Assembly (NCBI RefSeq): GCF_014203015.1
Contig: NZ_JACHIB010000024.1
Span: forward strand, 1-43,318
Length of the DNA: 43,318 nt
Source of the DNA: Castellaniella defragrans
GTDB taxonomy: Bacteria; Pseudomonadota; Gammaproteobacteria; Burkholderiales; Burkholderiaceae_B
Direction of reading: 5' to 3'
The notes below the pieces were generated by a model. It was not told where the DNA came from, did no database searches, and worked only from the letters and a program-made list of their open reading frames with translations. This document shows positions 15,444 to 38,621 of this stretch, in pieces; position 1 is the first letter of the stretch; every line of letters starts with the position of its first letter. Made by a program: the position numbers and the translations under genes.

Positions 15444-15472
15444 AATATAGAACTATATTCTGATGTACGCAA
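15444..15472 (-). promoter_or_regulatory. Promoter of the TIM-barrel gene with embedded GAA-N5-TTC operator
   Basis: Read on the minus strand: -35 TTGCGT (15467-15472), 6 nt, operator GAATATAGTTC (15450-15460), -10 TATATT (15444-15449). The spacer is 17 nt. The arrangement is base-for-base the same as in the promoter at 16642-16670, which makes both more credible. An operator touching the -10 should repress when bound. Confidence 0.7.
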
Positions 15473-15480
15473 CAATAAAA

Positions 15481-15495
15481 CGGAATCGGGTTCCG
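15481..15495. promoter_or_regulatory. Second GAAT-N3-GTTC operator upstream of aroE
   Basis: CGGAATCGGGTTCCG is a near-perfect inverted repeat with the same GAAT-N3-GTTC core (15483-15493) as sites at 15450, 16654, 34490 and 38611. It lies 89 bp before the aroE start and 22 bp from the neighbouring site, so one regulator could control both divergent genes. Confidence 0.6.
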
Positions 15496-15583
15496 CCGAT
15501 TCGCGTGCGGTACGCGGTCCAGGTTTACAGCGGCAACCCGGCACCGTATCCTTAGTCCCTTTTCGCTCCCCCAGGAGGCCGCG

Positions 15584-16393
15584 ATGCCCGACCGTTATGC
15601 CGTCATCGGCAACCCGATAGCCCAATCCAGGTCTCCGGTCCTGCACACGGCTTTCGCGCGCCAGTTCGGCCACGATCTCCAGTACGAGAAGCTGCTCGCC
15701 ACGCACGAGAATTTCGCCGAGACCGTGCGCCGGTTCATCGCCGAGGGCGGCAAGGGGATGAACGTCACGGCGCCGTTCAAGCTCGCTGCGCTGGAGTTCG
15801 CCGACACCCTGTCCGAGCGGGCGCGCGCCGCGCGCGCCATCAACACGCTCAAGTTCGGCCCCGAGGGCGTCCATGGCGACAACACCGACGGCGTCGGCCT
15901 GGTCAGCGACATCCGCGACCGCCTGGGGATCGCGCTGCGGGACCGGCGCATCCTCGTCATCGGCGCAGGCGGCGCGGCGCGCGGCATCCTGCAGCCGCTG
16001 CTCGAGACCGGTCCGGCCCATCTGCTGCTGGTCAACCGCACCGAACGCAAGGCCCACGAGCTGCTGGAGGCCTGCGGCGCCGCCGGCGTCACCGCGGCCG
16101 GTCCGCTGGACGCGGCGGCGGATGGCGCCTTCGACGTCGTGATCAACGCCACCTCGGCCAGCTTCGACGACGGCCGCCTGCCCCTGGGGCGTGGCACCTT
16201 CGCGCCCGGCGCCCTGGCCTACGACCTGGTGTATGGCCGCGGCGAAACAGCCTTCCTGCGCGATGCCCGGCGGCTGGGCGCGGCCCGGGTCTCGGACGGC
16301 CTGGGCATGCTGGTGGGGCAGGCGGCCGAATCCTACCGCCTCTGGTTCGGCTGCTGGCCCGACGTGGAGCCGGTCATGGCCCTGGTGCGCTAG
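15584..16393 (+). CDS. aroE: Shikimate dehydrogenase (NADP-type AroE)
   Basis: The 269-aa protein reversibly reduces 3-dehydroshikimate to shikimate. Shikimate-binding Ser15 and Ser17 (NPIAQSRSP), Lys66 (NVTAPFK), Asn87 and catalytic Asp102 (GDNTDG) are present. The nucleotide fold has GAGGAARG (127-134) and the NADP-specific Asn-Arg-Thr at 151-153. These are the hallmarks of the AroE class. The start ATG has AGGAGG upstream. Unlike the second homologue at 33527-34435, this one keeps the NADP signature. Whether it is the cell's biosynthetic enzyme or serves the divergent TIM barrel cannot be decided; the shared operator region suggests local regulation. Confidence 0.92.
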   Translation: MPDRYAVIGNPIAQSRSPVLHTAFARQFGHDLQYEKLLATHENFAETVRRFIAEGGKGMNVTAPFKLAALEFADTLSERARAARAINTLKFGPEGVHGDNTDGVGLVSDIRDRLGIALRDRRILVIGAGGAARGILQPLLETGPAHLLLVNRTERKAHELLEACGAAGVTAAGPLDAAADGAFDVVINATSASFDDGRLPLGRGTFAPGALAYDLVYGRGETAFLRDARRLGAARVSDGLGMLVGQAAESYRLWFGCWPDVEPVMALVR

Positions 16394-16641
16394 GCGCGCC
16401 CCGGCCGCGGCGGCAATCCCGCGGCGCATCCTCCTTCTCCGTTCCGCCTCTCCGCTCCCGCGGGCTGCCGGGGGCTGCCCGCGTGCGCCCCGCAGCCACG
16501 CACCCGGGCATCGCGCGCCCGAGCACCAGCGCAGCCGGGCACCCGAGCAGCCGCGCCGGGCGCCGCCGGCCGGCTGCAGGGAACGGCGCGCTGGCATGCC
16601 GTCGCGCACTCCTCCAGGCAAAAGCCGATTCTATAAATCAG
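16394..16641. other. GC-rich low-complexity spacer
   Basis: This is the first part of a 319-bp gap between aroE and the next operon. It is very GC-rich with imperfect CACCCGGGCA/GCACCCGAGC-like repeats and no frame resembling a protein. No terminator with a T-tract was seen. The remainder of the gap carries the promoter described separately. Confidence 0.5.
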
Positions 16642-16670
16642 TTGCGACAAGCAGAATTCTGTTCTAAAGT
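16642..16670 (+). promoter_or_regulatory. Promoter of the caiB-lyase-TPP-liv operon with embedded operator
   Basis: The order is -35 TTGCGA (16642-16647), 6 nt, operator GAATTCTGTTC (16654-16664), -10 TAAAGT (16665-16670), with a 17-nt spacer. The same geometry occurs on the minus strand at 15444-15472. The start codon of the first gene is 43 bp downstream. Confidence 0.7.
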
Positions 16671-16712
16671 TAGGCATGGCGATTCCATTATCAGCATGAG
16701 ACGAGGAACAGA

Positions 16713-17915
16713 ATGGCAAAGGCCCTCGCGGGTATCCGCGTACTGGATCTGACGAATGTCCTGGCAGGGCCGTTCTGCGCCTATCAGTTCGCGCTGCTCG
16801 GCGCCGAAGTGATCAAGGTTGAAGTGCCGGGCTCCGGGGATCTCGCCCGGCAGCTGGGCGCCGACCCGGAGCTGAACGGCCGCGGCATGGGGGCGTCCTT
16901 CCTCGCGCAGAACGGCGGCAAGCGCTCCATCACCCTGAACCTGAAATCCGCCGGCGGGCGCGAGGTCCTGCGCCGCCTGGTGGCCTCCGCGGACGCCCTG
17001 ATCGAAAACTTCCGCCCCGGCGTGATGGATCGCCTGGGCGTGGGGTACGAGGCGCTCAAGGCGGTCAATCCGCGGCTGGTCTATTGCGCGATCTCCGGCT
17101 TCGGCCAGGACGGCCCCATGCGCCACGCGCCCGCCTACGATCAGATCGTCCAGGGGCTGTCGGGCGTGATGAGCATCACCGGCTCGGAAGAATCGGCGCC
17201 GCTGCGCGTGGGCTATCCCATGGCCGACACCATCGGCGGGATCACCGCCGCCTTCGCCGTGGCCAGCGCCCTGGTGCGCCAGCAGCGCACCGGCGAGGGC
17301 GATTTCATCGACGTGTCCATGCTGGATTCCGTCATCGTCACGATGGGCTGGGTGGTCTCTAACTACCTGATCGCCGGCGTGGAGCCCCGCCCCATGGGCA
17401 ACGAGAACTTCACCGCCGTGCCTTCCGGCACCTTCAGGACGGGCGACGGCCCGCTGAACATCGCCGCCAACAAGCAGGAGCAGTTCGAGGCGCTGATGGA
17501 CGTGATCGGCCGCCCCGAGCTCAAGACCGATGCGCGCTTCGCCGGACGCGAGAGCCGCAAGAAGAACCGCGCCGCGCTCACGGCCGAGATCGAGCGGGCC
17601 CTGTGCACGAAATCCGCCCGCGAATGGGAGGGCATCCTGTCGGGCATCGGCGTGCCCTCGGGGCGCGTCCTGAGCGTGCCGGATGCACTGGCCCATCCCC
17701 AGATCGCCGAGCGCGCGCTGCTGCGGCGGTTCGACGACGCGCCCGGCGTGGGCCGGCCGATCGAGCTGGTGCGGACCGGATTCAAGATGGCCGGCGGCAG
17801 CCCCGACGTCGAGGCGCCGCCGCCGGCCCTCGGCCAGGATACTGACCCGATCCTGGCGGAACTGGGCTACGGCCGGGACGAGATCGCGCGGCTGCGCGAG
17901 GAACACGTGGTATAG
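16713..17915 (+). CDS. CaiB/BaiF family CoA-transferase
   Basis: This 400-aa class III CoA-transferase moves CoA between carboxylic acids. The family opening GIRVLDLTNVLAGPFCAYQF and the linked GAEVIKVEVPGSGD are present. The catalytic Asp is at 172 (YPMADTIGG), matching Asp169 of formyl-CoA transferase. The start is an ATG after AGACGAGGAACAGA. It is the first gene of an operon with a citryl-CoA-lyase-like enzyme 14 bp downstream and a TPP enzyme after it, so it probably activates an organic acid for cleavage. The acid itself cannot be read from sequence. A second, distinct member of the family is at 28797-30032. Confidence 0.92.
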   Translation: MAKALAGIRVLDLTNVLAGPFCAYQFALLGAEVIKVEVPGSGDLARQLGADPELNGRGMGASFLAQNGGKRSITLNLKSAGGREVLRRLVASADALIENFRPGVMDRLGVGYEALKAVNPRLVYCAISGFGQDGPMRHAPAYDQIVQGLSGVMSITGSEESAPLRVGYPMADTIGGITAAFAVASALVRQQRTGEGDFIDVSMLDSVIVTMGWVVSNYLIAGVEPRPMGNENFTAVPSGTFRTGDGPLNIAANKQEQFEALMDVIGRPELKTDARFAGRESRKKNRAALTAEIERALCTKSAREWEGILSGIGVPSGRVLSVPDALAHPQIAERALLRRFDDAPGVGRPIELVRTGFKMAGGSPDVEAPPPALGQDTDPILAELGYGRDEIARLREEHVV

Positions 17916-17929
17916 AAAGAGGACGAAAC

Positions 17930-18754
17930 ATGACGGCACAGCACGACGATCGCGTGGACCAGGCCAGCCGGTGGTGGTCCACCGACATCATCGACATCCA
18001 CCCCGGCGAGATCCGCATCCGCGGCTATGCGATCCAGGACCTGATCGGCCGGATCGGCTTCCCGGAAATGATCTGGCTCATGCTGCGCGGCGAACTGCCC
18101 GGCAAGGCCCAGGCGGCGCTGCTCGAAGCCGCGCTGGTCTCCTCCGTGGACCACGGCCCGCATGCGCCTTCCATCGCCATTTCCCGCATGGCGATCAGCT
18201 GCGGCGTGGACCTGAACGGCGCCATGGGATCGGCGGTCAACGTGCTGGGCGACATCCACGGCGGCGCCGGCCAGCAATGCATGGAAATCTACCAGGACTG
18301 CGTGGCGCGCGCCGGGCGCGGCGAACCGCAGCCCGTGAAGGCCGCGCTGGACGCGTATCGGGCCGCGCACGGCAAGATCGTGCCCGGCTTCGGCCATCGC
18401 TTCCATCCGCGCGATCCGCGCGCCAAGCGGCTGCTGGCCCTGGTGGACGAGGCGGTCGCCCAGGGCGTCGTCTCGGGCGAATTCGCCCGCATCGGGCGCC
18501 AGGTCGAAGCCGTCCTGGAGCAGGAAAAGGGCCGCCACATCCCCATGAACATCGACGGCGCGACCGCGGTGATCTATTCCGAACTCGGCTTCGCGCCGGA
18601 ACTGGGACGGGGGATCTTCATCCTCTCGCGCTCGGTCGGCATCCTCGCCCATGCCTGGGAGCAGATGCGCGAAGGCCGCCGGATCAAAGGCCCCATGCCG
18701 CCTTCCATCCCGTACGCCTACACCGGGCCGCGGCACGCCGAACTTCCCGAATGA
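17930..18754 (+). CDS. Citryl-CoA lyase-like protein (citrate synthase superfamily)
   Basis: This 274-aa protein is about the size of stand-alone citryl-CoA lyase and shorter than citrate synthase (about 430 aa). The three catalytic residues of the superfamily are visible: His75 (VDHGPHAPS), His156 (PGFGHRFHP) and Asp209 (MNIDGA). A Gly-rich segment DIHGGAGQQ is at 108-116. Enzymes of this kind split a hydroxyacyl-CoA into acetyl-CoA and a 2-oxo acid. With a CoA-transferase before it and a TPP-dependent enzyme after it, the likely flow is acid, acyl-CoA, then acetyl-CoA plus a 2-oxo acid. The preceding site AGAGGA fits the start. Citryl-CoA itself need not be the substrate. Confidence 0.85.
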   Translation: MTAQHDDRVDQASRWWSTDIIDIHPGEIRIRGYAIQDLIGRIGFPEMIWLMLRGELPGKAQAALLEAALVSSVDHGPHAPSIAISRMAISCGVDLNGAMGSAVNVLGDIHGGAGQQCMEIYQDCVARAGRGEPQPVKAALDAYRAAHGKIVPGFGHRFHPRDPRAKRLLALVDEAVAQGVVSGEFARIGRQVEAVLEQEKGRHIPMNIDGATAVIYSELGFAPELGRGIFILSRSVGILAHAWEQMREGRRIKGPMPPSIPYAYTGPRHAELPE

Positions 18755-18776
18755 ACGGTCTCAGGAGACAGACACC

Positions 18777-20537
18777 ATGCAAGAACTCATTTCCCGGCAA
18801 CTGGTCCGCTACCTCGAAGAGCGCGGCGTCGAGCACGTCTTCGGCCTGTGCGGCCACACCAACATCGCGGTCCTGACGGAGCTGGGCAAGAGCTCCATCC
18901 GCTTCGTCAACACGCGCCACGAGCAGATCGCCGCGCACGCCGCCGACGGCTACGCGCGGATGAAGAAAAAGGCCGCCGTGGTCCTCAGCCACCTCGGGCC
19001 GGGCCTGACGAACGCCGCCACCGGCGTGGCGAACGCGGCCCTGGACTCCATCCCCATGGTCGTGATCGCGGGCGACGTCCCCAGCCACTACTACGGCAAG
19101 CATCCGCACCAGGAAATCAACCTGCACGCCGACGCCGCGCAATGGGAGGTCTACCGTCCCTTCGTGAAGCGCGCCTGGCGCGTCGAGCGTCCCGACCTGT
19201 TCCCCGAAATCGTCGAGAAGGCCTTCCAGCTGGCCGAAAGCGGCCGCCCGGGCCCGGTGCTGGTGTCCGTGCCGATGGACATCTTCTCCAAGGAAATCGA
19301 CACCGCGCTGTTCGAGCGCCTGCGCCCGCACACCCGCCAGCTCGAAAAGCCGTCGCTGGACGAGGCCGTGGCGCGGCGCATCGTCCAGGCCCTGATCGAC
19401 GCCGAGCGTCCCGTGATCTACGCGGGCGGCGGCATCCTGCTGGCCGATGCCGCGCAGGAACTCGAACAGCTGGTCGATCACCTGGGCATCCCGGTCGCCC
19501 ATTCCCTCATGGGCAAGGGCGCGCTGCGCGACGACCACGACCTGACCCTGGGCATGACGGGCTTCTGGGGCACGCAGTTCGTCAACGACGCGTGCCGCAC
19601 CGCGGACCTGGTGATCGGCCTGGGCACGCGCTTCGCCGAAGCCGACTGCAGCTCCTGGGACGACCGCTACACCTTCAGCTTCCCGCCCGCGCGCCTGATC
19701 CACATCGACATCGACCCGAGCGAGATCGGCCGCAACTATCCGGTCGAGATCGGCGCGGTCGCCGACCTGCGCCAGGCGCTGGTCGCGCTCAACCGGGTCG
19801 CGCGCGAGATGCTGCCCGCGGGCCGCCGCAACGAGGCCATGCGCGCGCGCATCGCCCGCTACCGCGAGGAATTCGCCGCCGGCAACGCGGCGCTCATCCG
19901 CGAGGACCGCTACCCCATGCAGCCCGAACGCATTCTGTCGGAAGTGCGCGAGGTCCTGCCGCGCGACGCCATCATCACCACCGACGTGGGCTGGAACAAG
20001 AACGGCGTGGGCCAGCAGTTCCCCGTCTACGTGCCGGGCAGCATCCTCACCCCCGGCGGCTATGCCACGATGGGCTTCGGCGCGCCCGGCGCCCTGGGCG
20101 CCAAGCTGGCCTGCCCGGACCGCGTGGTGGTGTCGCTGGTGGGCGATGGCGGCTTTGGCCAGAATCCCGCGCTGCTGGCGACCGCGGTCGAGGAGGACAT
20201 CCCCGTCGTGTGGGTCGTGATGAACAACTGCGCCTTCGGCACCATCGCGGGCCTGCAGAAGGCGCACTACGGCACGACCACCGGCACGGTCTTCGCCAAG
20301 GACGGCCAGCCCTACACGCCGGACTACGCCGCCGTGGCCCGCGCCTACGGCGCCGAAGGCATCCGCATCCAGGACACCGCGGAATTCAAGGACGCGCTGG
20401 CGCGCGCCATCGCCAGCGGCAAGCCGTGCGTCATCGACGTGCTGATGCGCAACAATCCGGTGCCCACGTCCGGCCATTGGAATATTCTTGACATCTACTC
20501 GCCGAACGCAAAGATTTCCCACGTCAGCATAGATTGA
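18777..20537 (+). CDS. Thiamine pyrophosphate enzyme (acetolactate synthase-like)
   Basis: The 586-aa protein starts MQELISRQLVRYLEERGVEH at 18777 with AGGAG upstream. It has the three-domain layout of the acetolactate synthase/decarboxylase family. The N-terminal pyrimidine-binding domain carries the catalytic Glu49 (TRHEQIAAHAADGYAR). A central domain spans about 195-330. The C-terminal domain carries the TPP-Mg motif from GDG (456-458) to VVMNNCAFG. It could be a 2-oxo-acid decarboxylase, a carboligase or a CoA-dependent lyase; sequence alone does not choose. Composition becomes less GC-rich in the last 25 codons, close to the liv genes, suggesting a junction of different origins. Confidence 0.88.
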   Translation: MQELISRQLVRYLEERGVEHVFGLCGHTNIAVLTELGKSSIRFVNTRHEQIAAHAADGYARMKKKAAVVLSHLGPGLTNAATGVANAALDSIPMVVIAGDVPSHYYGKHPHQEINLHADAAQWEVYRPFVKRAWRVERPDLFPEIVEKAFQLAESGRPGPVLVSVPMDIFSKEIDTALFERLRPHTRQLEKPSLDEAVARRIVQALIDAERPVIYAGGGILLADAAQELEQLVDHLGIPVAHSLMGKGALRDDHDLTLGMTGFWGTQFVNDACRTADLVIGLGTRFAEADCSSWDDRYTFSFPPARLIHIDIDPSEIGRNYPVEIGAVADLRQALVALNRVAREMLPAGRRNEAMRARIARYREEFAAGNAALIREDRYPMQPERILSEVREVLPRDAIITTDVGWNKNGVGQQFPVYVPGSILTPGGYATMGFGAPGALGAKLACPDRVVVSLVGDGGFGQNPALLATAVEEDIPVVWVVMNNCAFGTIAGLQKAHYGTTTGTVFAKDGQPYTPDYAAVARAYGAEGIRIQDTAEFKDALARAIASGKPCVIDVLMRNNPVPTSGHWNILDIYSPNAKISHVSID

Positions 20538-20581
20538 CACCAACTGTTCGACGCACTATCGCGTCATCTCAGGAGACAAGC

Positions 20582-21745
20582 ATGAAAGCCTTCACCCCGT
20601 TCCGGAAGTACGCGCTCGCGGGCTCCCTCGCCCTGGTACTGGCCGGCCTGTCCGCGCCGGCGCCGGCAGCCGATACTGTCAAGATCGCCGAGATCACCGA
20701 ACTCACTGGGCCGGGAGCCACATCCGGCACCAACTTCAAGAACGGTGTGGATCTGGCCGTCAAGGAAATCAACGACGCCGGCGGCATTCTGGGCCGTCAG
20801 ATCGAGACGACCTCGGCCGATACGCAGACCAATCCGGGCATCGCCAAAGGCTTGGCCCAGAAAGCGATCGATGATGACGCCTTTGCCGTGTTCGGTCCGG
20901 TGTTCTCGGGCTCGATCATGGTCAGCATGGTTGTGACTGAAGAAGCCAAAGTGCCCAACTTCATCGGCGGCGAGGCAGCGTCCATCACGCAGAGAGGAAA
21001 TCCCTACGTCTTCCGCACCAGCCTGACTCAGGCTGACGCCATGCCCAAGATTGCGCGCTACCTGGACGGCCGCAAGGACATCGCCAGCATCGCCGTGATC
21101 TTCGTGAATGACGATTTCGGCAAGGGCGGACGCGACGCCATCATCGAGGCGCTCAAGAGCACCCACGTGAAGGTCGTCGAAGACATTTCGACCAGTTCCA
21201 GCCAGGTGGACTTCAGCGCGGCCGTACTCAAGGCCAAGCAGAGCAAGGCCGACGCGATCTTCGCCTACCTGCATGAGGAGGAATCCGCACGCCTGCTGCG
21301 CGAGCTGAAAAAACAGGGCTGGGACAAGCCGATCATCGGCGAAACCACGCTGACGGGCCAAAAGGTCGTCGAACTCGCCGGCCCTGCCGCCGAGGGCGCC
21401 ATCGCCCACGTGGGCCTAACGGTGGATGCGCCGCTGCGCGGCATGAAAAAGTTCAACGAGGACTTCCAGAAGGCCTACGGCTATGTGTCGGATCATAACG
21501 GCATCAAGGGCTATACCGGTGTTTACATGCTCAAGGCCGCCATCGAAAAGGTCGGCAAGTTTGATCGTGAGGCCGTCGCCCAGGCCTTGCACGGCCTTCA
21601 TATTTCCGTCGGGGAGCATCCCGGCGTCCTGATGGATGTCACCATCGATGACAAGGGTGACCTGGACCGCGAGAGTTTCCTGGTGCATGTGGATAACGGC
21701 CGCCAGAAGGTCAGAGAGATTCTGCCGCCTCTCTCCAAAAAGTAA
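20582..21745 (+). CDS. Liv-type ABC transporter periplasmic binding protein
   Basis: This 387-aa precursor starts at 20582 with AGGAG 8 nt upstream. The signal peptide has the charged start MKAFTPFRKY, a hydrophobic stretch, and probable cleavage after SAPAPA near residue 29. The mature part is a type I periplasmic binding fold (VKIAEITELTGPGATSGTNF; GPVFSGSIM; VSDHNGIKGYTGVYMLKAAI). The ligand could be a branched amino acid, an amide, or an aromatic or short organic acid; neighbours favour an organic acid. Its C-terminal tail is nearly duplicated in the remnant at 13261-13317. Codon use is less GC-rich than in the three genes before it. Confidence 0.9.
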   Translation: MKAFTPFRKYALAGSLALVLAGLSAPAPAADTVKIAEITELTGPGATSGTNFKNGVDLAVKEINDAGGILGRQIETTSADTQTNPGIAKGLAQKAIDDDAFAVFGPVFSGSIMVSMVVTEEAKVPNFIGGEAASITQRGNPYVFRTSLTQADAMPKIARYLDGRKDIASIAVIFVNDDFGKGGRDAIIEALKSTHVKVVEDISTSSSQVDFSAAVLKAKQSKADAIFAYLHEEESARLLRELKKQGWDKPIIGETTLTGQKVVELAGPAAEGAIAHVGLTVDAPLRGMKKFNEDFQKAYGYVSDHNGIKGYTGVYMLKAAIEKVGKFDREAVAQALHGLHISVGEHPGVLMDVTIDDKGDLDRESFLVHVDNGRQKVREILPPLSKK

Positions 21746-21854
21746 AACGACGTGACTCTCCTGCTGGCCGCGCACCTTCTGAGCAGCAGCCAGCAGAGGA
21801 GCGGCCGGGGTTTCGCACCTGACGACCCATCCACTCGAATCGGCGACAGCCAAG

Positions 21855-22730
21855 ATGACAGACTTCATTCAACTCATTATTTCCGGGATGGCCACCGGGG
21901 CGATCTACGCCCTGGCCGCCCTAGGATTCACCTTGCTGTGGCAAGCATCCGGGACGATCAACTTTGCCACGGGCGAGTTCGTCATGCTGCCGGCATTCTC
22001 GATGCTGGCCTTCCAGTCGCTGGGCCTGCCCCTGCTGGTGAGCTTTCTGCTCACGCTGGTGGTCGCCACCGCCGTGCTGGGATTCGGTTTCAAGCGCGCC
22101 ATCGTCGATCCGATGCGCAAGTTCGGCGTGATGCCCCTGGTGGTGGCCACGATCGGACTGGCGCTGATCATGCGCAGCGGCGTGCAGATCGCCTTCGGCG
22201 CGCAGGCGCTGCCTTTCAAGAACATCTTCGGTTACGAGGTCTTCCGTTTCGCGGGCGTGAGCGTGTCGGCCAACGATCTGGGCACCCTGGCCGTCACCCT
22301 GATCGTCGTCCTGGGCCTGCAGGCTTTCCTGCAGCGCACGGTCACTGGCCGCGCCATGCAGGCGGTGGCGCAGAACACCGAATCGGCCGAGGTGCTGGGG
22401 ATCAAGGTCAACCGCATGATCTTCTACACCTTCGCCATCAACGCCATGCTGGCCAGCTTGGCCGCACTGCTGGTCACGCCGCTGTACCTGGCCAAGTTCG
22501 ACATGGGCATCACCCTGGGGCTGAAGGCCTTCCTGGCGGCTATCATCGGCGGGTTCAACAACTCGCGTGGCGCGCTGCTGGGCGGCATCATCATCGGTGT
22601 GAGCGAAAACCTCGCCGGCGCCTACATCTCGCCAGCCTACAAGGACGGCGTCGCGCTGGCGCTGTTCCTGCTTGTGATCCTGTTCAAACCCAACGGCTTG
22701 CTGGGCGCGCCCGCCGAGCGCAAGGTCTGA
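21855..22730 (+). CDS. Liv-type ABC transporter permease (LivH-like)
   Basis: This 291-aa inner-membrane protein has about eight hydrophobic segments. The family opening is FIQLIISGMATGAIYALAAL, with the characteristic GFTLLWQASGTINFATGEF segment. The cytoplasmic coupling loop VTGRAMQAVAQNTESAEVLG, which contacts the ATPases, is present. It follows the binding-protein gene by 109 bp and precedes the LivM-like gene by 10 bp, so it is one half of the channel. The ribosome-binding site is weak, and the start is chosen for family length. Confidence 0.92.
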   Translation: MTDFIQLIISGMATGAIYALAALGFTLLWQASGTINFATGEFVMLPAFSMLAFQSLGLPLLVSFLLTLVVATAVLGFGFKRAIVDPMRKFGVMPLVVATIGLALIMRSGVQIAFGAQALPFKNIFGYEVFRFAGVSVSANDLGTLAVTLIVVLGLQAFLQRTVTGRAMQAVAQNTESAEVLGIKVNRMIFYTFAINAMLASLAALLVTPLYLAKFDMGITLGLKAFLAAIIGGFNNSRGALLGGIIIGVSENLAGAYISPAYKDGVALALFLLVILFKPNGLLGAPAERKV

Positions 22731-22740
22731 GGGGACGGCC

Positions 22741-24467: not shown

Positions 24468-24471
24468 GGCG

Positions 24472-26791: not shown

Positions 26792-26830
26792 GCCGTATTT
26801 AAAAACACAATGAATTGAATTTTGATTATT

Positions 26831-28273: not shown

Positions 28274-28285
28274 CAAGGACCCCTG

Positions 28286-30090: not shown

Positions 30091-30126
30091 GGCGTGCCCG
30101 GCTTGCGGCCGGGACGCGGTCCGGGT

Positions 30127-30573: not shown

Positions 30574-30667
30574 ACGACGCTTCCTGTCTTGAGTGGTCTT
30601 GAATCGGTCTGGGTTGGCCTGGATCGGAGGGCCTGCGCGGGCCGCGGGCGGCCCGCGCCGGACGGGA

Positions 30668-31690: not shown

Positions 31691-31727
31691 GGTTGTCTCC
31701 TTGGATTGTCGAGCACTTGTCGAACTA

Positions 31728-33005
31728 TTAATAGAGCCAGCGCGCGGGAACGAGCACCAGATCGGGGAACAGCACCAGCAGGAAAAGCACGGCGAGCTGC
31801 GCGAGCAGGAAGGGAAGGGCGCCGCGCGTGACATCGTCCATGCTCAGCCGCCCGACGCCGGCGACCGTGTTCAGCACGGTGCCGACCGGCGGCGTGATCA
31901 GGCCGATGGCATTGTTGATGATGAACAGCACGCCGAAATACACCGGATCGATGCCCGCCGCCTTGACGGCGGGCATCAGGACCGGGGTGAGGATCAGGAT
32001 GGTGGGCGTCATGTCCATGGCGGTGCCGACCAGCACCACCAGGGCCATGGCGGCGAGCATCAGCAGCAGCGGCTCGCCGATCAGCGGTTCGAGCAGGTCC
32101 ACCATCCGGTCGGGCAGGCCGGCCACGGTGATGAGCCAGGCGCTGACCATGGCGGCCGCCACCAGCAGCATGATGACCGCGGAGACCTTGGCCGAGCTGA
32201 GGAACACCTGGTAGAGGCTGCGCAGGTTCATCTCGCGGTAGATGAACGTCGAGACGAACCAGGAGTAGACGGCGGCCACCACGGCGGCCTCGGTGGGCGT
32301 GAACACGCCGAAGCGCAGGCCCACGATGATGATCACCGGCATGCCCAGCGCCCAGATGCCCTCGCGCGCCGCGTGCAGGACGTCCCGGGGGCTCTTGCGC
32401 GGCTGGGGCGTGATCGGCTCGCGGCGCACCAGCCAGGCCCAGGTCACCCACAGCGCGGCGCCCATCATCAGGCCCGGCAGGATGCCGGCCAGGAAGAGCT
32501 TGGAGATCGACACGTTGGCCGCGACGCCGAAGATGATCATGCCGATGCTGGGCGGGATGACGGGCGCGATGATGCCCGCCGACGCGATCAGGCCGGCCGA
32601 GCGCTTGCGGTCATGGCCGGCGGCCGTCATCATGGGCAGCAGCAGGGCGGTCATGGCGGCCGCGTCGGCCACGGCCGAGCCCGACAGCGCCGCCATCAGG
32701 CAGGCCGTGATGATGGTGACGTAGCCCAGGCCGCCCTTGACGTGGCCCACCAGCACCATGGCGAAGTCCACGATGCGGCGGGACAGGCCGCCCACCGTCA
32801 TGATTTCGCCGGCCAGCATGAAGAACGGCACCGCCAGCAGGGGGAAGCTGTTGGCCCCGTTGATCAGGTTCTGCGCCAGGATCTGCGCGTCGAACATGTC
32901 CAGCTGCCACATCAGGGCGGCGCCCGAGATGAGCAGCGCGAAGGCGATCGGCACGCCGATGGCCATGGCGCCCAGCAGGGCGACGAGAAAGGTCGTCAGG
33001 ATCAT
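31728..33005 (-). CDS. TRAP transporter large permease (DctM family)
   Basis: The 425-aa membrane protein starts MILTTFLVALLGAMAIGVPI at 33005. Conserved stretches are SFPLLAVPFFMLAGEIMTVG, GSAVADAAAMTALLLPMM and AAVVAAVYSWFVSTFIYREM. It is the sodium-coupled transport subunit with about 12 to 13 membrane segments. Its start overlaps the dctQ stop by 4 bp (ATGA). The dctP gene follows after 37 bp. Confidence 0.94.
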   Translation of the reverse strand: MILTTFLVALLGAMAIGVPIAFALLISGAALMWQLDMFDAQILAQNLINGANSFPLLAVPFFMLAGEIMTVGGLSRRIVDFAMVLVGHVKGGLGYVTIITACLMAALSGSAVADAAAMTALLLPMMTAAGHDRKRSAGLIASAGIIAPVIPPSIGMIIFGVAANVSISKLFLAGILPGLMMGAALWVTWAWLVRREPITPQPRKSPRDVLHAAREGIWALGMPVIIIVGLRFGVFTPTEAAVVAAVYSWFVSTFIYREMNLRSLYQVFLSSAKVSAVIMLLVAAAMVSAWLITVAGLPDRMVDLLEPLIGEPLLLMLAAMALVVLVGTAMDMTPTILILTPVLMPAVKAAGIDPVYFGVLFIINNAIGLITPPVGTVLNTVAGVGRLSMDDVTRGALPFLLAQLAVLFLLVLFPDLVLVPARWLY

Positions 33006-33511
33006 GCTTGTTCTCCGGCGTCGTCGATGTAGCGGTCCACGGTGGCCATGGAGCCCGTGGCCAGGCGGTAGAGGTCGCCCACCAGGACCAGCGCGCCCGC
33101 GACGCTGAAGACCATGCCGCTGGCATAGAACAGGCCCATGGAGATGCCCGTGATGGGCGCGCCGACCGACACGTTGATGAGGGTTTGCGACAGGGCGCCC
33201 GAGAACACCAGCCAGCAGATGTACAGCATGGCGAGGCGGCCGATGAACAGGCTGATGCGGCGGCCGGCCGGCGGGAGCCGCCGGACGACGAAATTGGAGC
33301 CCAGGTGGGTGTTCTCGCGCATGGCGATGATGCTGCCCAGGAACGTGATCCAGATGAACAGCCAGCGGGACATCTCTTCCGAGATCAGGATGCCCGAATT
33401 GAAGCCGTAGCGCAGGACGACGTTGCCGAACACCAGCACGACCATCGCCGCCAGCATGGCCACGATCAGGAAGGACAGGCCGCGCGTGCAGGAATCGATG
33501 ATTTTTTTCAT
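33002..33511 (-). CDS. TRAP transporter small permease (DctQ family)
   Basis: This 169-aa membrane protein has four hydrophobic segments. The family signature is visible as FNSGILISEEMSRWLFIWIT followed by FLGSIIAMRENTHLG. It pairs with DctM and is needed for assembly of the TRAP permease. It lies 15 bp after the aroE-like gene and is coupled to dctM by overlap. Confidence 0.93.
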   Translation of the reverse strand: MKKIIDSCTRGLSFLIVAMLAAMVVLVFGNVVLRYGFNSGILISEEMSRWLFIWITFLGSIIAMRENTHLGSNFVVRRLPPAGRRISLFIGRLAMLYICWLVFSGALSQTLINVSVGAPITGISMGLFYASGMVFSVAGALVLVGDLYRLATGSMATVDRYIDDAGEQA

Positions 33512-33526
33512 GGCGGGATCCTCGCG

Positions 33527-34435
33527 TCAGGCGGGATGGGTGGGGCGGTCGGCCGCGGCCGCGGCGCGGCGCGCCAGGATTTCCGCCACGTGCGCGGCCA
33601 TGCGGCGCGCATCGGCGGCGATGCCGTTGGTATAGAGCTCGAAGGCCCGGGCCGCCTGGTGCACGACCATGCCCAGGCCGTTGATCGTGTGGCAGCCCTT
33701 TGCGCGCGCGATGCGCAGCAGCTCGGTCTCCAGCGGGAAATAGATGATCTCGGCGAACCAGTGGCGCGGCTCCAGCAGCGACCCCGGGATCGGCGTGCCG
33801 GGGTGCTTGCGCATGCCCACCGGCGTGGCGTTGATCAGGCCGTCGGCGCGGCGCAGGGCCTGGGCCGGATCGCCGCCGACGTCCACCGGGATGCCGGGAA
33901 AGCGCGTCCGCAGGGCCTGGGCGAGGTACTCGGCGCGGCCCGCCGTCTGGTCGAACAGGGTCAGGCTGCGCGCGCCCAGCCGCAGGATGGCGTCGGCCAC
34001 CGCGGCGCCCGCGCCGCCGGCCCCGAGCTGCACGACGTGGCCCGGCGCCCGGCCGCCCAGGTTCTCGCGCAGGTTCTGCGAGAAGCCGTAGTGATCGGTG
34101 TTGTGGCCGATGCGCCGGCCGTTGCGCAGGACCACGGTGTTGACCGCGCCGATGACGCGCGCCTCGTCGGACAGTTCGTGGAGGTGCGGGATGACGGCCT
34201 GCTTGCAGGGATGGGTGACGTTCAGGCCGGCGAAGCCGAAGCGCTCCGCGGCGGTCAGGAGCTCGGGCAGGTTCGCCGGCCCCAGGCCGAGTTCGTCCAG
34301 ATCGATCCGCTGATAGATGCAGAGCAGCCCGTGCCGCGCCGCCTCGTGCTCGTACAGGGTGGGACTGAGGGACTCGCCGATGCCTTCGCCAATCAGGCCG
34401 AGCAGCAGGGCGGGCGTTTCGTTTTCCGGACGCAT
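33527..34435 (-). CDS. Quinate/shikimate dehydrogenase (AroE family, NAD-type signature)
   Basis: The 302-aa protein starts MRPENETPALLLG at 34435 with AGGAAG about 8 nt upstream. Substrate residues are Ser22 and Ser24 (ESLSPT), Lys78 (LNVTHPCK) and Asp114 (GHNTDHYGF). The nucleotide fold has GAGGAG (138-143). The residue after the second strand is Asp162 (LTLFDQT), where NADP enzymes have Asn-Arg-Thr; an acidic residue here usually means NAD, as in catabolic quinate/shikimate dehydrogenases. It is first in an operon with TRAP and dehydroquinase genes. It differs strongly from the AroE at 15584, supporting a catabolic role. Confidence 0.88.
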   Translation of the reverse strand: MRPENETPALLLGLIGEGIGESLSPTLYEHEAARHGLLCIYQRIDLDELGLGPANLPELLTAAERFGFAGLNVTHPCKQAVIPHLHELSDEARVIGAVNTVVLRNGRRIGHNTDHYGFSQNLRENLGGRAPGHVVQLGAGGAGAAVADAILRLGARSLTLFDQTAGRAEYLAQALRTRFPGIPVDVGGDPAQALRRADGLINATPVGMRKHPGTPIPGSLLEPRHWFAEIIYFPLETELLRIARAKGCHTINGLGMVVHQAARAFELYTNGIAADARRMAAHVAEILARRAAAAADRPTHPA

Positions 34436-34453
34436 GGGATGTCTTCCTGGTTG

Positions 34454-34473
34454 TATGTACCGGTTCGTACATA
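34454..34473. promoter_or_regulatory. 20-bp palindrome upstream of the aroE2-TRAP operon
   Basis: TATGTACCGGTTCGTACATA has two perfect 7-bp arms (34454-34460 and 34467-34473) around 6 bp. It lies 18 bp upstream of the start codon, so it falls in the 5' untranslated region or near the transcription start. The TNGTNNNACNA-like half (TTGTATGTACCGG region) resembles GntR-type sites; the regulator is unknown. Confidence 0.55.
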
Positions 34474-34483
34474 TTTTCGCTAT

Positions 34484-34513
34484 AGAATAGAATTCAGTTC
34501 CGAACCGCGTCAA
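34484..34513 (-). promoter_or_regulatory. Promoter of the aroE2-TRAP-aroQ operon with GAA-N5-TTC operator
   Basis: Minus-strand reading: -35 TTGACG (34508-34513), then operator GAACTGAATTC (34490-34500), then -10 TATTCT (34484-34489). The spacer is 18 nt. The operator again abuts the -10, as in the promoters at 15444-15472 and 16642-16670. Confidence 0.6.
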
Positions 34514-34541
34514 ACAGAATTTGCTAGGTGATTACCCTTGT

Positions 34542-34574
34542 TTGTCTAATTCTGTTCAGCAGAATATGATTCTG
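34542..34574 (+). promoter_or_regulatory. Aldehyde dehydrogenase promoter with perfect palindromic operator
   Basis: -35 TTGTCT (34542-34547) and -10 TATGAT (34565-34570) are 17 nt apart. CAGAATATGATTCTG (34560-34574) is a perfect inverted repeat with the GAA-N5-TTC core and covers the -10. Further CAGAAT/ATTCTG half-sites occur at 34515-34520 and 34549-34554. Confidence 0.65.
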
Positions 34575-34603
34575 TTAGAAAGAACTTCCTAGGTGGAACC
34601 GTC

Positions 34604-36079
34604 ATGTCCCTGCCCCGCTACGATCACTTCATCAACGGCGCCCGCGTGCCGCCCGCGTCCGGCGATTATTTCGACACCGAAAACCCCTATACGGGCGAAG
34701 TCTGGGCGCATATCGCGCGCGGCAACGCGGCCGACGTGGATGCCGCCGTGGCCGCCGCCAAGGCCGCCTTCGAGGGTCCGTGGGGCGGCCTGACCGCCAC
34801 CCGCCGCGGCCAGCTGCTGCGCCGCCTGGCCGACCTGGTGATCGAGCACGCCCCCCGCCTGGCGGAAATCGAGCAGCGCGACAACGGCAAGCTGTCCTCC
34901 GAGGTCGTCGCGCAGGTGCGCTACATGGGCGAATACTTCCATTACTACGCCGGCCTGGCCGACAAGGTCGAAAGCAAGGTCATCCCCACCGACAAGCCCG
35001 GGGTCTTCACCTTCACCCGCTACGAGGCCAAGGGCGTGGTGGTGATCATCACGCCCTGGAATTCCCCGCTCACCCTCACCAGCTGGAAACTGGCACCGGC
35101 CCTGGCGGCGGGCTGCGTGGCGGTGGTCAAGCCCTCGGAATTCACCTCGGCCTCGATGCTGGAATTCGCCGCGCTGTTCGAGCAGGCGGGCTTTCCGCCC
35201 GGGGTGGTCAACGTCGTGACGGGCTTCGGCGCCGAAGTCGGCGAGCCGCTGGTGGCGCACCCCGACGTGGCGCACATCGGCTTCACCGGCGGCGAGCTGG
35301 CCGGCAAGCGCATCTACGAGGCGGCGGCGCGCAACCTCAAGACCGTCACACTGGAACTGGGCGGCAAGTCGCCCAACATCATCTTCGACGACGCCGACCT
35401 GGACCAGGCCGTCAAGGGCGTCGTGTCGGGGATCTTCGCCGCGTCCGGCCAGAGCTGCCAGGCCGGCTCGCGCGTGCTGGTGCAGGAAAGCATCCACGAC
35501 GAGCTGATCCGGCGCCTGGTCGAATTCGTGGGCACGGCCAAACTGGGCGATCCGACCCGGCCCGACACCCAGATCGGGCCCATCGCCACCCGGCCGCAGT
35601 TCGAGAAGGTGCTCGACTACATCCGCATCGCGCGCGAGGAAGGCGCCCGCTGCGTGCTGGGCGGCAAGGCGCGCCCGGACCTGGGGGCCGGCCAGTTCGT
35701 CGAGCCCACCATCTTCACCGGGGTGGACAACCGCATGCGCATCGCCCAGGAGGAAGTGTTCGGGCCGGTGCTGTGCGTCATCCCCTTCAAGGACGAGGCC
35801 GACGCCATCCGCATCGGCAACGACATCCTCTACGGCCTGGCCGGGGCGGTCTGGACGCGCAGCCTGCATCGCGCGCTGTACGTCACCGAGCGCCTGAAGG
35901 CCGGCACGGTCTGGGTCAACAACTACCGCGCCACCAGTTTCACCACGCCCTTCGGCGGCTACAAGCGTTCGGGCATCGGCCGCGAATCGGGCTCGGACGC
36001 CATCCACGAATACCTGGATACCAAGAGCGTCTGGATTTCCACCGACCTGGACGTGCCCAACCCCTTCATCCGCCGCTGA
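34604..36079 (+). CDS. Aldehyde dehydrogenase (NAD(P)-dependent)
   Basis: This 491-aa protein is of normal family length. Catalytic Cys285 is in SGQSCQAGSR and general base Glu251 in TLELGGKSP. The cofactor-binding segment is IITPWNSPLTLTSWKLAPAL; FGPVL and the C-terminal FGGYKRSGIGRESG are present. AGGTGGAA precedes the ATG. It would oxidise an aldehyde to its acid. It stands alone, divergent from the aroE2-TRAP operon and sharing its regulatory region, so it probably works on a side product or on an aldehyde from the same compound class. The substrate is not readable. Confidence 0.92.
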   Translation: MSLPRYDHFINGARVPPASGDYFDTENPYTGEVWAHIARGNAADVDAAVAAAKAAFEGPWGGLTATRRGQLLRRLADLVIEHAPRLAEIEQRDNGKLSSEVVAQVRYMGEYFHYYAGLADKVESKVIPTDKPGVFTFTRYEAKGVVVIITPWNSPLTLTSWKLAPALAAGCVAVVKPSEFTSASMLEFAALFEQAGFPPGVVNVVTGFGAEVGEPLVAHPDVAHIGFTGGELAGKRIYEAAARNLKTVTLELGGKSPNIIFDDADLDQAVKGVVSGIFAASGQSCQAGSRVLVQESIHDELIRRLVEFVGTAKLGDPTRPDTQIGPIATRPQFEKVLDYIRIAREEGARCVLGGKARPDLGAGQFVEPTIFTGVDNRMRIAQEEVFGPVLCVIPFKDEADAIRIGNDILYGLAGAVWTRSLHRALYVTERLKAGTVWVNNYRATSFTTPFGGYKRSGIGRESGSDAIHEYLDTKSVWISTDLDVPNPFIRR

Positions 36080-36097
36080 GCGCCGCGGCGGGCCCGC

Positions 36098-36964
36098 TCA
36101 GCGGGCTGGCGCGCGCCGCAGCGGCAGGCGCCGGCGCAGGGCCTGGTCGTGGATCCATCCCACCGAGCGGATGCCCAGCCGCGCCACCGCGTGGGCCGGC
36201 AGCTGCCGGTAGTCCTTGTTGAAGACCAGCAGGCTGTAGCTGCCCTCGTAGTCCAGGCCGTCCAGGCGCCGCACGAGGGCGGCGACCTGGTCGCTCTGCA
36301 CGCCGTCGCCCGGAAACACCCGCATGCGGTCGGCGTCGTGCGGCTGGTTTTCCCGCAGCGCCGGGACGCCGAAGTCGGCGAGCTGCACCAGCACGATCCT
36401 GTCCGGCGGGATCTCGTCCAGGATGCCGAAGGCCGAGCCCTCGGCGATGAAGTGGAAGGCGTCCAGCACGAGGCCGAGGTTGGCGTGCGCGGCGCGGCAC
36501 ACCAGGTCCCAGGCGCTGCGGATGTCCGCGCCCGTGTGGCTCCAGGGGATCGCCTTGAAGCCGATGCGCACGCCCGTCGGCACGGCCAGGTTGGCCAGCT
36601 TGCGCAGGTCGGCCTCGGCGCGTTCCGGCGCGAGCGCGCGCGGCAGCGCCGCCGAGGCCGACACGATCAGCAGCGGCGCGCCCACGTCGGCGCAGATTTC
36701 CAGCAGGGCCTTGGCCACGTCGAGCTTGTAGCGGTGCGCCGGGCCGTTCATGCCCTCGTAGTCGCGCATCAGCTGCAGGCCGGTGATCTCCAGGCCGCTT
36801 TCGCGCACCCGCCGGACCGCGGTTTCGTAGCCCTCGGGGTGGTTGGCCAGGTCCCGCGCCCACAGCATGACCTGGGAGAAGCCGGCCGCCTCCGCGGCGC
36901 GCAGGCGTTCCTCCAGGGAGCCCGCCATGCAGGCCAGGTCGATGCCGAAGCGCTCCTGGCTCAT
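36098..36964 (-). CDS. QuiC-like TIM-barrel protein with degenerate metal site
   Basis: The 288-aa protein starts MSQERFGIDLACMAGSLEER at 36964, overlapping the preceding stop by 4 bp. It resembles the N-terminal 3-dehydroshikimate dehydratase domain of QuiC (LQLMRDYEGM, LDAFHF, VQLAD, RVFPGDG). Of the four metal ligands, Asp168 and Gln194 remain. The first Glu is Lys137 (IGFKAIPW) and the last is Leu246 (YSLLVFNKD). Metal-dependent dehydration as described for QuiC is therefore doubtful. It could be a changed enzyme, or a subunit of the HPPD-like protein encoded just before it. The frame is clean, so this is not simple decay. The assignment to the fold is firm, the function unknown. Confidence 0.8.
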   Translation of the reverse strand: MSQERFGIDLACMAGSLEERLRAAEAAGFSQVMLWARDLANHPEGYETAVRRVRESGLEITGLQLMRDYEGMNGPAHRYKLDVAKALLEICADVGAPLLIVSASAALPRALAPERAEADLRKLANLAVPTGVRIGFKAIPWSHTGADIRSAWDLVCRAAHANLGLVLDAFHFIAEGSAFGILDEIPPDRIVLVQLADFGVPALRENQPHDADRMRVFPGDGVQSDQVAALVRRLDGLDYEGSYSLLVFNKDYRQLPAHAVARLGIRSVGWIHDQALRRRLPLRRAPAR

Positions 36965-37848
36965 CGGGATTCCCGGGGCGGCGTGGCGTGGCGCACCAGC
37001 TCGAACGTCACGTCGTAGGACATGGCCGCGGTGATGGCGCCGTGGGCCTCCGTGTGGATGAAGGCGTTGTCCTGGAAAGGCACGCCCTGCGCGGCCATGG
37101 CGCGCACCGTCCCCAGCACGTCGGGCGTGCCGAAGGCCAGCCGCGCGAACTGCTCGTCCCATTCCGTGTCGTAGAGGGCGTCGCCCACCGGCTCGACGAG
37201 CTGCAGGTGGAAGCATCCGCAGGGGCTGCCCAGGATGGTGCCGCGCGGCAGGATGCCGAAATGGGTTTCCGCGGGCAGGGCCCTGAAGCCGAACAGCTGG
37301 GCGTAGAAGTCGGTCCACTGCGCGCTGCGCCCGGGGCCGATGTGCTGCACGAGGCCGAAGAAATGCAGGTCCGGCACCAGCGGCTCCACGTCCCGCTGCT
37401 CGTCCAGGTAGATGAAATCGATGTCGTAGATGGAAAAGGGGCGCAGACGGTCCACCAGGTAGATGACGGTGTCGCCCACGCCGTGGATGCCGGGGATGTT
37501 CAGTTCCATGGCGCCCGCCCGGGTGGGGATGGGCCAGGCGCCCCAGGCCATGCTGCGCTCGTAGGCCCGGCCGGCGTGGTCCACCTGGAACGCCACGGCG
37601 CTGATCTGGTGGTCCTCGCCCTCGCGCGCCACGCTGGCCAGCGTGGCGGGATCGGAATTGACGATGAGGTTCATGCCGCCCTGGCGGTACAGCAGCACCT
37701 GGCGGGAGCAGTGGCGGGCGATCTGGCGAAAGCCGATCCGGGTCAGCACGGCGCCCAGTTCCTCGGGGCGGGTGGAGGCGAATTCGATGAACTCGATCCC
37801 GCGGATGGCCGGCGGGGGGCTGGCGAACGCGGTTTCCTCGGCGCTCAT
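36961..37848 (-). CDS. HPPD-like VOC-family protein
   Basis: This 295-aa protein has two VOC modules as in 4-hydroxyphenylpyruvate dioxygenase and in the C-terminal half of QuiC (GIEFIEFASTRPEELGAVLT ... VLLYRQGGMNLIVN). By alignment from memory with HPPD, the first His is kept (His169, LVQHIG) and the Glu is kept (Glu283, TFELVRH). The second His is replaced by Arg236 (ARLAFGTPDV). The iron site is thus probably not normal. The gene overlaps iclR upstream and the QuiC-like gene downstream by 4 bp each, so all three are translationally coupled. In Pseudomonas QuiC the two domains are fused in the opposite order. Confidence 0.8.
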   Translation of the reverse strand: MSAEETAFASPPPAIRGIEFIEFASTRPEELGAVLTRIGFRQIARHCSRQVLLYRQGGMNLIVNSDPATLASVAREGEDHQISAVAFQVDHAGRAYERSMAWGAWPIPTRAGAMELNIPGIHGVGDTVIYLVDRLRPFSIYDIDFIYLDEQRDVEPLVPDLHFFGLVQHIGPGRSAQWTDFYAQLFGFRALPAETHFGILPRGTILGSPCGCFHLQLVEPVGDALYDTEWDEQFARLAFGTPDVLGTVRAMAAQGVPFQDNAFIHTEAHGAITAAMSYDVTFELVRHATPPRESR

Positions 37849-38558
37849 GGCGACGTACCCGCGCCGCCTTCGGGCCAGCGCCCGCCCAGGGCGTCGGTGA
37901 GCTCGGCCGCGTGGCGCTTGAGCACGGGGATCACCTGGGCGATCTTTTCCTCGCTGAAGCGGTATTTGGGGCCCGAGATGGACACCACGCCGGCCAGCTG
38001 CTGGCCGATCCCGAACACGGGACAGGCCACGGCCCCGATCTCGGGGTCCCGCTCGCCCAGGGAGACCGCGTAAAGCGCGCGTCGTATGTCGTCGTATTTC
38101 TCGCCCGCCTCCTGCTCGAAGGCGCGCATGACATGGCCCGAGGCGCCCACCTTGAGGGGCAGGGCGTCGCCCTCGTGGACGGAATCGCGCACCGAGCGCG
38201 GCGCGTCCACCCGGTGCAGGCAGATGCGGGCGTCGTGGTCCTTGATGAAGAAGGAGGCGCCTTCCTGGAGCTCGTCCACGATGCTGCGCAGCACGGGCAC
38301 GACGATGTCGGCGCTGCGGAAGTGCTTCTGGTAGAGCGAGCCGAGATACAGAGGCTTGGGCCCGAGGCGGTAGGTGCCGTCTTCCAGGCGGCGGAGATAG
38401 CCGAACTTCTCCAGCGATTCGGCCAGCCGCAGCGTCGTGCTCTTGTAGAAGCCCGCGCGCTTCGAGATGTCCGTGAGGGTGAGGCTGTCTCCTCCGTCGA
38501 TGAATACGTCCAGGATGGTCAGTGCGCGGTCTACCGCGGCGACGCCTTCACGGGTCAT
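37845..38558 (-). CDS. IclR family regulator
   Basis: The 237-aa protein has an N-terminal winged helix-turn-helix (AAVDRALTILDVFIDGGDSL then TLTDISKRAGFYKSTTLRLA, about 7-50). A GAF-like effector domain follows (about 75-230) with the family end GVVSISGPKYRFSEEKI. IclR proteins typically govern aromatic, quinate and glyoxylate catabolism. The gene heads an operon with the HPPD-like and QuiC-like genes and has a GAAT-N3-GTTC site in its own promoter region, which fits autoregulation. It is the best candidate to bind the same motif at the other promoters of the island. Confidence 0.92.
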   Translation of the reverse strand: MTREGVAAVDRALTILDVFIDGGDSLTLTDISKRAGFYKSTTLRLAESLEKFGYLRRLEDGTYRLGPKPLYLGSLYQKHFRSADIVVPVLRSIVDELQEGASFFIKDHDARICLHRVDAPRSVRDSVHEGDALPLKVGASGHVMRAFEQEAGEKYDDIRRALYAVSLGERDPEIGAVACPVFGIGQQLAGVVSISGPKYRFSEEKIAQVIPVLKRHAAELTDALGGRWPEGGAGTSP

Positions 38559-38610
38559 GGGGGGCGGCCTCTTGCAGGGTGGGAAATCCGGTCATGGGGC
38601 TATGATAACC

Positions 38611-38621
38611 GAATACGGTTC
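38611..38621. promoter_or_regulatory. GAAT-N3-GTTC operator in the iclR-eamA intergenic region
   Basis: GAATACGGTTC lies 53 bp upstream of iclR and 156 bp before the divergent EamA permease gene. On the minus strand it falls between a weak CTGAAA and TATCAT (18 nt spacing), a plausible iclR promoter. It matches the motif of the other catabolic promoters in the window. Confidence 0.6.

Follow-up and report, generated by a model that had tools for sequence, protein, structure and literature searches.

A conserved putative operator for a local IclR-family regulator in a catabolic gene island of Castellaniella defragrans

Introduction

Do the several transcription units of a catabolic gene island in Castellaniella defragrans answer to one regulator, and, if so, to which? 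The island lies in a stretch of 43,318 nucleotides (assembly GCF_014203015.1, contig NZ_JACHIB010000024.1; hereafter the window, meaning the whole stretch analysed) and includes the gene of a 237-residue regulator of the IclR family (37845-38558, minus strand). An earlier note on this DNA had pointed to six copies of an 11-bp dyad, GAA-N5-TTC, and had proposed that one regulator links the TIM-barrel/AroE, CoA-transferase-Liv, AroE2-TRAP-AroQ and aldehyde dehydrogenase (ALDH) units and iclR itself. Our analysis supports this link, with two changes: the dyad at 15483 is the upstream half of a tandem pair with 15450, and an acyl-CoA dehydrogenase gene probably has to be added. The overall claim of a shared operator is confirmed on stronger grounds than were first given. 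Judged from sequence comparisons, the motif is very probably the operator of the neighbouring IclR protein, and we think it highly likely that this protein is a local, autoregulated repressor acting through (C/T)AGAAY-N3-RTTCT(A/G).

Results

All six GAA-N5-TTC copies, which start at 15450, 15483, 16654, 34490, 34562 and 38611, are present and intergenic as had been described, none lying within a called gene. The window contains 12 copies in total, against 5.6 +/- 2.5 in shuffles, of which 1 in 100 reached 12; because 12 compares with 5.6 expected, the bare motif is enriched merely about twofold. The additional copies are found within open frames (18783, 21179 and 40289) and in intergenic DNA (13130, 34485 and 34578). 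The earlier note had allowed for a few chance copies while regarding the promoter placement as non-random; enrichment of the bare motif is indeed weak, and the non-chance part is borne out by tighter motif forms and by conservation. The palindromic core with an extra T and G/A at its edges also held, the consensus given above being the better description.

GAAT-N3-GTTC occurs 45 times in the 3.94-Mb genome, with five copies in the window (binomial p = 1.4e-4), and RGAAY-N3-RTTCY occurs 24 times, again with five in this 1.1% of the genome (binomial p = 5.7e-6); the iclR site at 38611 lacks one outer purine and falls outside the latter set. Genome-wide clustering of RGAAY-N3-RTTCY was compared in four genomes, and the three others gave the same picture: 4 of 25 copies lie in the island of the related Castellaniella genome G374 (p = 4e-5), 4 of 25 in that of Castellaniella sp. 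S9 (p = 1e-4) and 3 of 32 in that of A. diolicum (p = 3e-4). These tight forms were derived from the window sites after the sites had been seen, so that conservation in held-out genomes is the weightier, independent test.

The sites are concentrated in the island promoters, and a wide regulon beyond the island was rejected: among the 40 GAAT-N3-GTTC matches outside the window, 24 have a codon-usage score of at least 20 and are clearly coding, five score between 5 and 20 (weakly coding) and 11 score lower. Ten of the low- or weak-coding matches were inspected; one is immediately 5' of a tRNA-Pro gene (L017), and one lies on the stop codon of an open reading frame (L004). L026 sits between divergent open frames. 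Another match, L022 (C11:28787), falls within a coding frame of the window's own genome and has similar flanks to a match in G374 (L112:9986); the two are probably conserved coding sequence and not an operator. Scanned with a matrix of 24 sites, the window gave eight hits of at least 8, all intergenic, namely the six sites, 34485 and a degenerate copy at 13160. No such hit was found upstream of the KPR-glyoxalase, CaiB2 or LysR-TetR genes, and the regulon looks local. A matrix built from the window sites alone gave a weak hit of 10.6 at 26812, between the LysR and KPR-glyoxalase genes; at a threshold of 9 this matrix is unspecific, with 13 hits across 21 control loci totalling 65.8 kb, and both the window and its relatives have further weak hits (9-13) outside the promoters.

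Orthologous island genes were located by tblastn, and 250 bp upstream of each was searched. The IclR protein has orthologues in S9 (83% identity), G374 (87%), Aromatoleum, Azoarcus and Thauera (64-67%), a metagenome-assembled genome (MAG) labelled Thiobacillus (65%), Zoogloea (65%) and Variovorax (49-50%). A class-wide search of 369 genomes for orthologues added one match, at 43%. GAAY-N3-RTTC was found in 19 of 24 orthologous upstream regions; with the shared TIM/AroE1 region counted once, the site is kept in 17 of 22 distinct regions of IclR-carrying genomes. The site-bearing regions precede iclR, CaiB1, AroE2, TIM/AroE1, ALDH and the acyl-CoA dehydrogenase gene in Castellaniella, Aromatoleum/Azoarcus and Thauera, and the site is missing from five regions: ALDH of G374 and S9, two of Zoogloea and one of Variovorax. 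In a subset of 19 regions, 17 carry the motif, compared with 0.31 expected and a maximum of 3 in 1000 shuffles; this subset is without Zoogloea (two regions), Variovorax (one) and the acyl-CoA dehydrogenase promoter of G374, which has no strict match, and includes the S9 acyl-CoA dehydrogenase region, which was added after its site had been seen. The 24-region count treats these two acyl-CoA dehydrogenase promoters likewise. Loci L032, L034, L037 and L040 were left out of the region counts as near-copies of L033, L033, L038 and L035, respectively, and L031 and G376, which were taken to be the same S9 contig, were counted once; in Thauera and A. diolicum, one site was counted both for ALDH and as the far site of iclR, which has a near site as well. 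When the gap between GAA and TTC was varied, a 5-base gap was found in 17 regions and every other gap from 0 to 14 in 0 to 4. Across seven aligned CaiB1 promoters, GAAT and GTTC are invariant (7/7), against a mean column identity of 62%, and the iclR promoter carries a site in five of the genomes compared (three Castellaniella, Thauera and A. diolicum). The loci of Thauera phenylacetica (L035) and the 'Thiobacillus' MAG (L040) look almost the same in where their genes lie and in the flanks of the sites, suggesting that the latter is mislabelled or mis-binned.

The position of the dyad within the predicted promoters is also conserved. Upstream of the TIM-barrel gene (AP_endonuc_2; 14602-15414, minus strand), the main putative operator at 15450-15460 (minus strand) forms the last 11 bp of the spacer of TTGCGT-17-TATATT (15467-15472 and 15444-15449), and it keeps the same register in G374 and S9; the start of this gene was placed at 15414 because the predicted -10 box is directly upstream of the ATG at 15441. 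The main putative operator of the CaiB1 operon (16654-16664, plus strand) lies in TTGCGA (16642-16647)-17-TAAAGT (16665-16670). The putative AroE2-TRAP operator (34490-34500, minus strand), also present at the AroE2 promoters of S9 and G374, is an 18-bp-spacer version, TTGACG (34508-34513)-18-TATTCT (34484-34489), and overlaps a second dyad at 34485-34495. The putative ALDH operator (34562-34572, plus strand) overlaps the -10 box (TATGAT, 34565-34570), has a weak partner dyad at 34547 and recurs at the ALDH promoter in Thauera and A. diolicum. In front of iclR, the putative site of autoregulation (38611-38621, minus strand; same place in S9 and G374) ends 3 bp before the predicted -10 box (TATCAT, 38602-38607; -35 box CTGAAA, 38626-38631).

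Promoter boxes were scored with rough sigma-70 weights. Twelve promoters (TIM, CaiB1 and S9 acyl-CoA dehydrogenase) were ranked, and in 10 the top-ranked of 231 arrangements was the one with the main dyad as the final 11 bp of the 17-bp spacer, directly against the -10 box: TIM of the window, G374 and S9 (TTGCnT-17-TATATT); CaiB1 of the window, A. toluolicum, Azoarcus Aa7, A. tolulyticum, Thauera and A. diolicum (TTGCnn-17-TAAAGT or TATTAT); and S9 acyl-CoA dehydrogenase (TTGACT-17-TAAAAT). For S9 CaiB1 the in-register promoter ranked third. The ALDH and iclR sites of Thauera and A. diolicum are downstream of the predicted -10 box.

By the 24-site matrix, all 10 TIM and CaiB1 promoters (three TIM, seven CaiB1; about three independent groups, namely TIM of Castellaniella, CaiB1 of Castellaniella and CaiB1 of Rhodocyclales) have a second, weaker dyad 32-33 bp upstream of the main dyad, and none of 14 other promoters has one at that offset. 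The weakest of the ten, AAAGCCGATTC at 16621-16631 (plus strand), 33 bp from the CaiB1 site at 16654, scores 4.8, a value with a chance of about 5e-4 at one position in shuffled upstream DNA. In the divergent region between the TIM-barrel gene and AroE1 (shikimate dehydrogenase; 15584-16393, plus strand; NF001310, 335 bits, cut-off 221), the upstream dyad at 15483-15493 (no strand assigned) is 33 bp from 15450, and the same -33 offset is seen in G374 and S9. The earlier note had listed this dyad among its six sites; since the second dyad recurs at -32/-33 in all ten promoters, we regard it as the upstream member of the TIM pair. A separate AroE1 operator was rejected, there being no good in-register promoter (best score 3.6). 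The additional dyads of the AroE2/ALDH region (weak 34547, overlapping 34485) do not have this spacing. The two-dyad layout belongs to the CaiB1 operon from Castellaniella to the Rhodocyclales genera and to the TIM-barrel gene within Castellaniella, and not to other promoters.

The note's choice of the IclR-family protein as the natural candidate is supported from several sides. Of the outcomes that the note had named as refuting its proposal, two were checked, namely equal frequency in coding regions and lack of conservation in orthologous promoters, and both checks favoured the proposal. Its N-terminal domain matches HTH_IclR (PF09339; residues 8-57, 49.6 bits, cut-off 22) and its C-terminal part PF01614 (59.9 bits, cut-off 24; the best stretch spans profile positions 108-171 of 174). 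In a structure prediction (mean pLDDT 82) the protein has the IclR fold and matches T. maritima IclR, with 245 aligned columns (E = 2.9e-18, TM 0.56, rmsd 9.0), the high rmsd probably stemming from a low-confidence hinge at residues 70-80 of the model. The iclR gene adjoins the sites in every carrier in which it was found (Castellaniella, Aromatoleum/Azoarcus and Thauera), and putative sites at its own and adjacent promoters are conserved in relatives. The recognition-helix segment FYKSTTLRLAESLEKFG does not vary among the site carriers aligned (eight of eight) or in the two Zoogloea; Variovorax has an altered version. The genome encodes eight further clear IclR proteins, of which two gave no alignment and the remaining six, alignable at 20-27%, have other helices. 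One part of the proposal needs correcting: the half-site is AGAAY, and the GGAA/TTCC type named in the note belongs to E. coli IclR.

Occurrence across genomes points to the same protein. CaiB1 has 39 relatives in 268 genomes, of which the 30 with loci were checked; within the window's family, four Castellaniella have a site no more than 300 bp away, and all 26 of the others lack one. At E <= 1e-50, these 26 genomes gave no IclR relative above 49%; their CaiB1 identity is merely 63-69%, and several have a distant IclR (40-49%), in one case (G500, 42%) 3 kb away.

The acyl-CoA dehydrogenase gene (13322-14497) probably belongs to the regulon. It is preceded by the degenerate candidate operator GACCGAAGTTC at 13160-13170 (plus strand), with scores of 11.7 (24-site matrix) and 12.2 (window-only matrix). 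At the same promoter, the site is intact in S9 (L115:12454) and degenerate in G374 (L111:10180).

The remaining genes of the putatively controlled units are CaiB1 (CoA-transferase III), a citryl-CoA-lyase-like protein, a thiamine pyrophosphate (TPP) enzyme and the LivK/H/M/G/F transporter (together 16713-25209, plus strand); AroE2, DctQ, DctM and DctP (a TRAP transporter) and AroQ (30127-34435, minus strand); and ALDH (34604-36079, plus strand; PF00171, 588 bits). The island is located between rpoC and rpsL-rpsG-fusA (3974-12393 and 40029-43160 in the window), as it is in G374 and S9; rpoC also adjoins it in G373. CaiB1, the lyase-like protein (445 bits) and the acetolactate-synthase-like TPP enzyme (16713-20537) form a conserved trio that is also found in Aromatoleum and Thauera. 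The idea, taken from A. diolicum 22Lin, that the TPP enzyme is a cyclohexane-1,2-dione hydrolase was not supported, since acetolactate synthases score higher (273 vs 198 bits). A second TIM-barrel gene (36098-36964, start inferred) and an HPPD-like gene (together 36098-37848) match positions 8-269 and 283-469 of QuiC (3-dehydroshikimate dehydratase; 635 positions) with 131 and 78 bits, far below the cut-off of 1200; the pair looks as if it were a split version of the fused QuiC. A Gfo/Idh/MocA oxidoreductase gene, assigned by Pfam from the S9 copy, stands between AroE2 and ALDH in S9 (L113:15476-16573) and G374 (L110:5398-6459) and is missing there in the window. G374 also has an amidohydrolase and a second AroE1-like frame between AroE1 and CaiB1 (L111:5286-7115), with an operator copy near the amidohydrolase start (L111:7042); the same operator word occurs in G373 (L183:6509).

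Discussion

Together, these observations suggest how the island might be controlled. When no inducer is present, IclR dimers would occupy the core promoters of iclR, TIM-barrel/AroE1, CaiB1-lyase-TPP-Liv, AroE2-TRAP-AroQ, ALDH and probably acyl-CoA dehydrogenase, lying either on top of the -10 box or beside it, within the spacer of 17-18 bp, and the bound protein would exclude RNA polymerase; dyads placed in the spacer or over the -10 box suit repression of this kind. At the TIM and CaiB1 promoters, the weaker dyad three helical turns upstream would probably let two dimers, that is, a tetramer, bind jointly across the -35 box. An intermediate of the island's pathway would then release the repressor, and, going by the AroE, AroQ and QuiC-like genes, this inducer is probably a quinate/shikimate-type compound. 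What the sequences show directly are the sites, their clustering and conservation, their register within the promoters, the tandem spacing and the co-occurrence with IclR; binding, repression, tetramer and inducer are all inferred. More tentatively still, the paired dyads, 32-33 bp or three turns apart with the strong one abutting the -10 box and the weak one beyond the -35 box, may bracket the -35 box, with an IclR tetramer clamping the promoter and derepression proceeding in a set order; this we hold to be possible, if somewhat short of probable. If it is true, the difference between paired-dyad promoters and the others would be a derepression order built into one regulon.

The sign of regulation is the part most open to another reading. 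The protein could bind the same sites as an activator, or as activator and repressor at once: activators and dual regulators occur in the IclR family, according to Suvorova and Gelfand (2021, PMC8222616), and the upstream TIM and CaiB1 dyads lie beyond the -35 box, where an activator could contact polymerase. The best dyads, however, are within the spacer or over the -10 box, and most promoters have recognisable boxes 17-18 bp apart, which suits polymerase exclusion; we consider activation unlikely.

Several other observations weigh against a conserved repressor acting at all these promoters. Besides the existence of activators in the family, Zoogloea has no GAAY-N3-RTTC 5' of iclR or AroE1 despite an IclR identity of 65% and an identical helix; it has just CAAAACAGCGTTTTA, 164 bp upstream of iclR (score 8.5), whose resemblance in sequence to the weak upstream dyads of CaiB1 promoters is suggestive only. 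Variovorax, with an IclR of 49-50% identity and an altered helix, has no site in the upstream region examined. Azoarcus Aa7 and two close Aromatoleum have just a degenerate dyad beside the iclR start, the full dyad being 184 bp upstream. ALDH has no near site in S9 and G374, in which the Gfo/Idh gene intervenes, and the in-register promoter of G374 CaiB1 is poor (rank 18). G373 has sites and no IclR match; this genome is 89% complete, and its 26-kb contig stops before the iclR position expected from G374. The motif, moreover, has A at position -6, where the published group 2 motif of IclR operators, compared below, has G.

A different protein might read the palindrome. TetR proteins bind short palindromes, and the TetR gene of the island (25194-25835) is inside it in all four Castellaniella carriers. 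In seven Aromatoleum/Azoarcus, Thauera and Zoogloea genomes, however, five of which have sites, no TetR orthologue was found at E <= 1e-20, and the LysR-TetR genes are themselves preceded by no more than the weak window-only hit at 26812. With its orthologue not found in distant site carriers, TetR was rejected as the binder, and we regard this reading as very improbable. Equally remote is binding by another regulator, such as the LysR protein (25832-26791), which is also present in the Thauera locus (55%), or a paralogous IclR: paralogues, where alignable, have different helices, and among eight other IclR loci, L041 and L042 each have one GAAY-N3-RTTC in 3.1 kb and the other six none. The general LysR consensus is T-N11-A according to PMC6449761, which mentions IclR proteins as outside its scope. 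That an AT-richer word clusters here by chance in intergenic DNA, as the twofold enrichment of the bare motif would allow, is contradicted at the level of sequence by the shuffle test (17 vs 0.31), by retention in 17 of 22 held-out distinct regions, by promoter register and spacing and by absence from 26 of 26 CaiB relatives without a close IclR, and can be dismissed.

That the neighbouring IclR represses the island through this operator thus remains the reading we prefer. It proposes a regulator, an operator and a regulon for a catabolic island, parts of which are common to Castellaniella and Rhodocyclales. Shared control suggests that the island genes serve one pathway, which should aid the search for its substrate, and the conserved promoter design provides a directly testable model of IclR repression.

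A literature search covering titles and abstracts of open-licence papers found no description of this regulon; several known systems are nevertheless close. According to PMC8222616, IclR proteins usually control their own gene and one or two adjacent operons, and one gene set listed there combines quinate/shikimate with 4-hydroxyphenylpyruvate. The best NCBIfam model for the window protein is that of the aromatic-catabolism regulators PcaR/PcaU/PobR (TIGR02431), and its modelled fold appears similar to P. putida PcaR; membership of this subfamily was rejected, as the score (88.4 bits) is far below the cut-off of 284.75, and the PcaR/PcaU/PobR motifs, GTNCG-N5-6-CGNAC, are of the other type of IclR motif. 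The KdgR operator tabulated in PMC8222616, RWWGAAACGNCGTTTCAKKA, shares with our motif the RAAC-N3-GTTY core and spacing, but its regulon concerns pectin/polygalacturonate, its inner positions are G/C, and it has GAAAC where the window motif has AGAAC.

Of the two types of IclR motif distinguished by Suvorova and Gelfand, the window motif resembles group 2, TGRAACA-N1-2-TGTTYCA. It has in common with it an odd-centred dyad, the RAAC-N3-GTTY core and a tandem habit; tandem sites there are 18-22 bp apart, and a spacing of about three turns is overrepresented but less pronounced. It differs at -6 (A in 81% and G in 10% of our 24 sites), in having C or T at -2 (54% and 46%) and in a main site that abuts the -10 box. 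The island is, in short, very probably a further IclR regulon, controlled in a familiar way but through promoters whose design is unusually clear.

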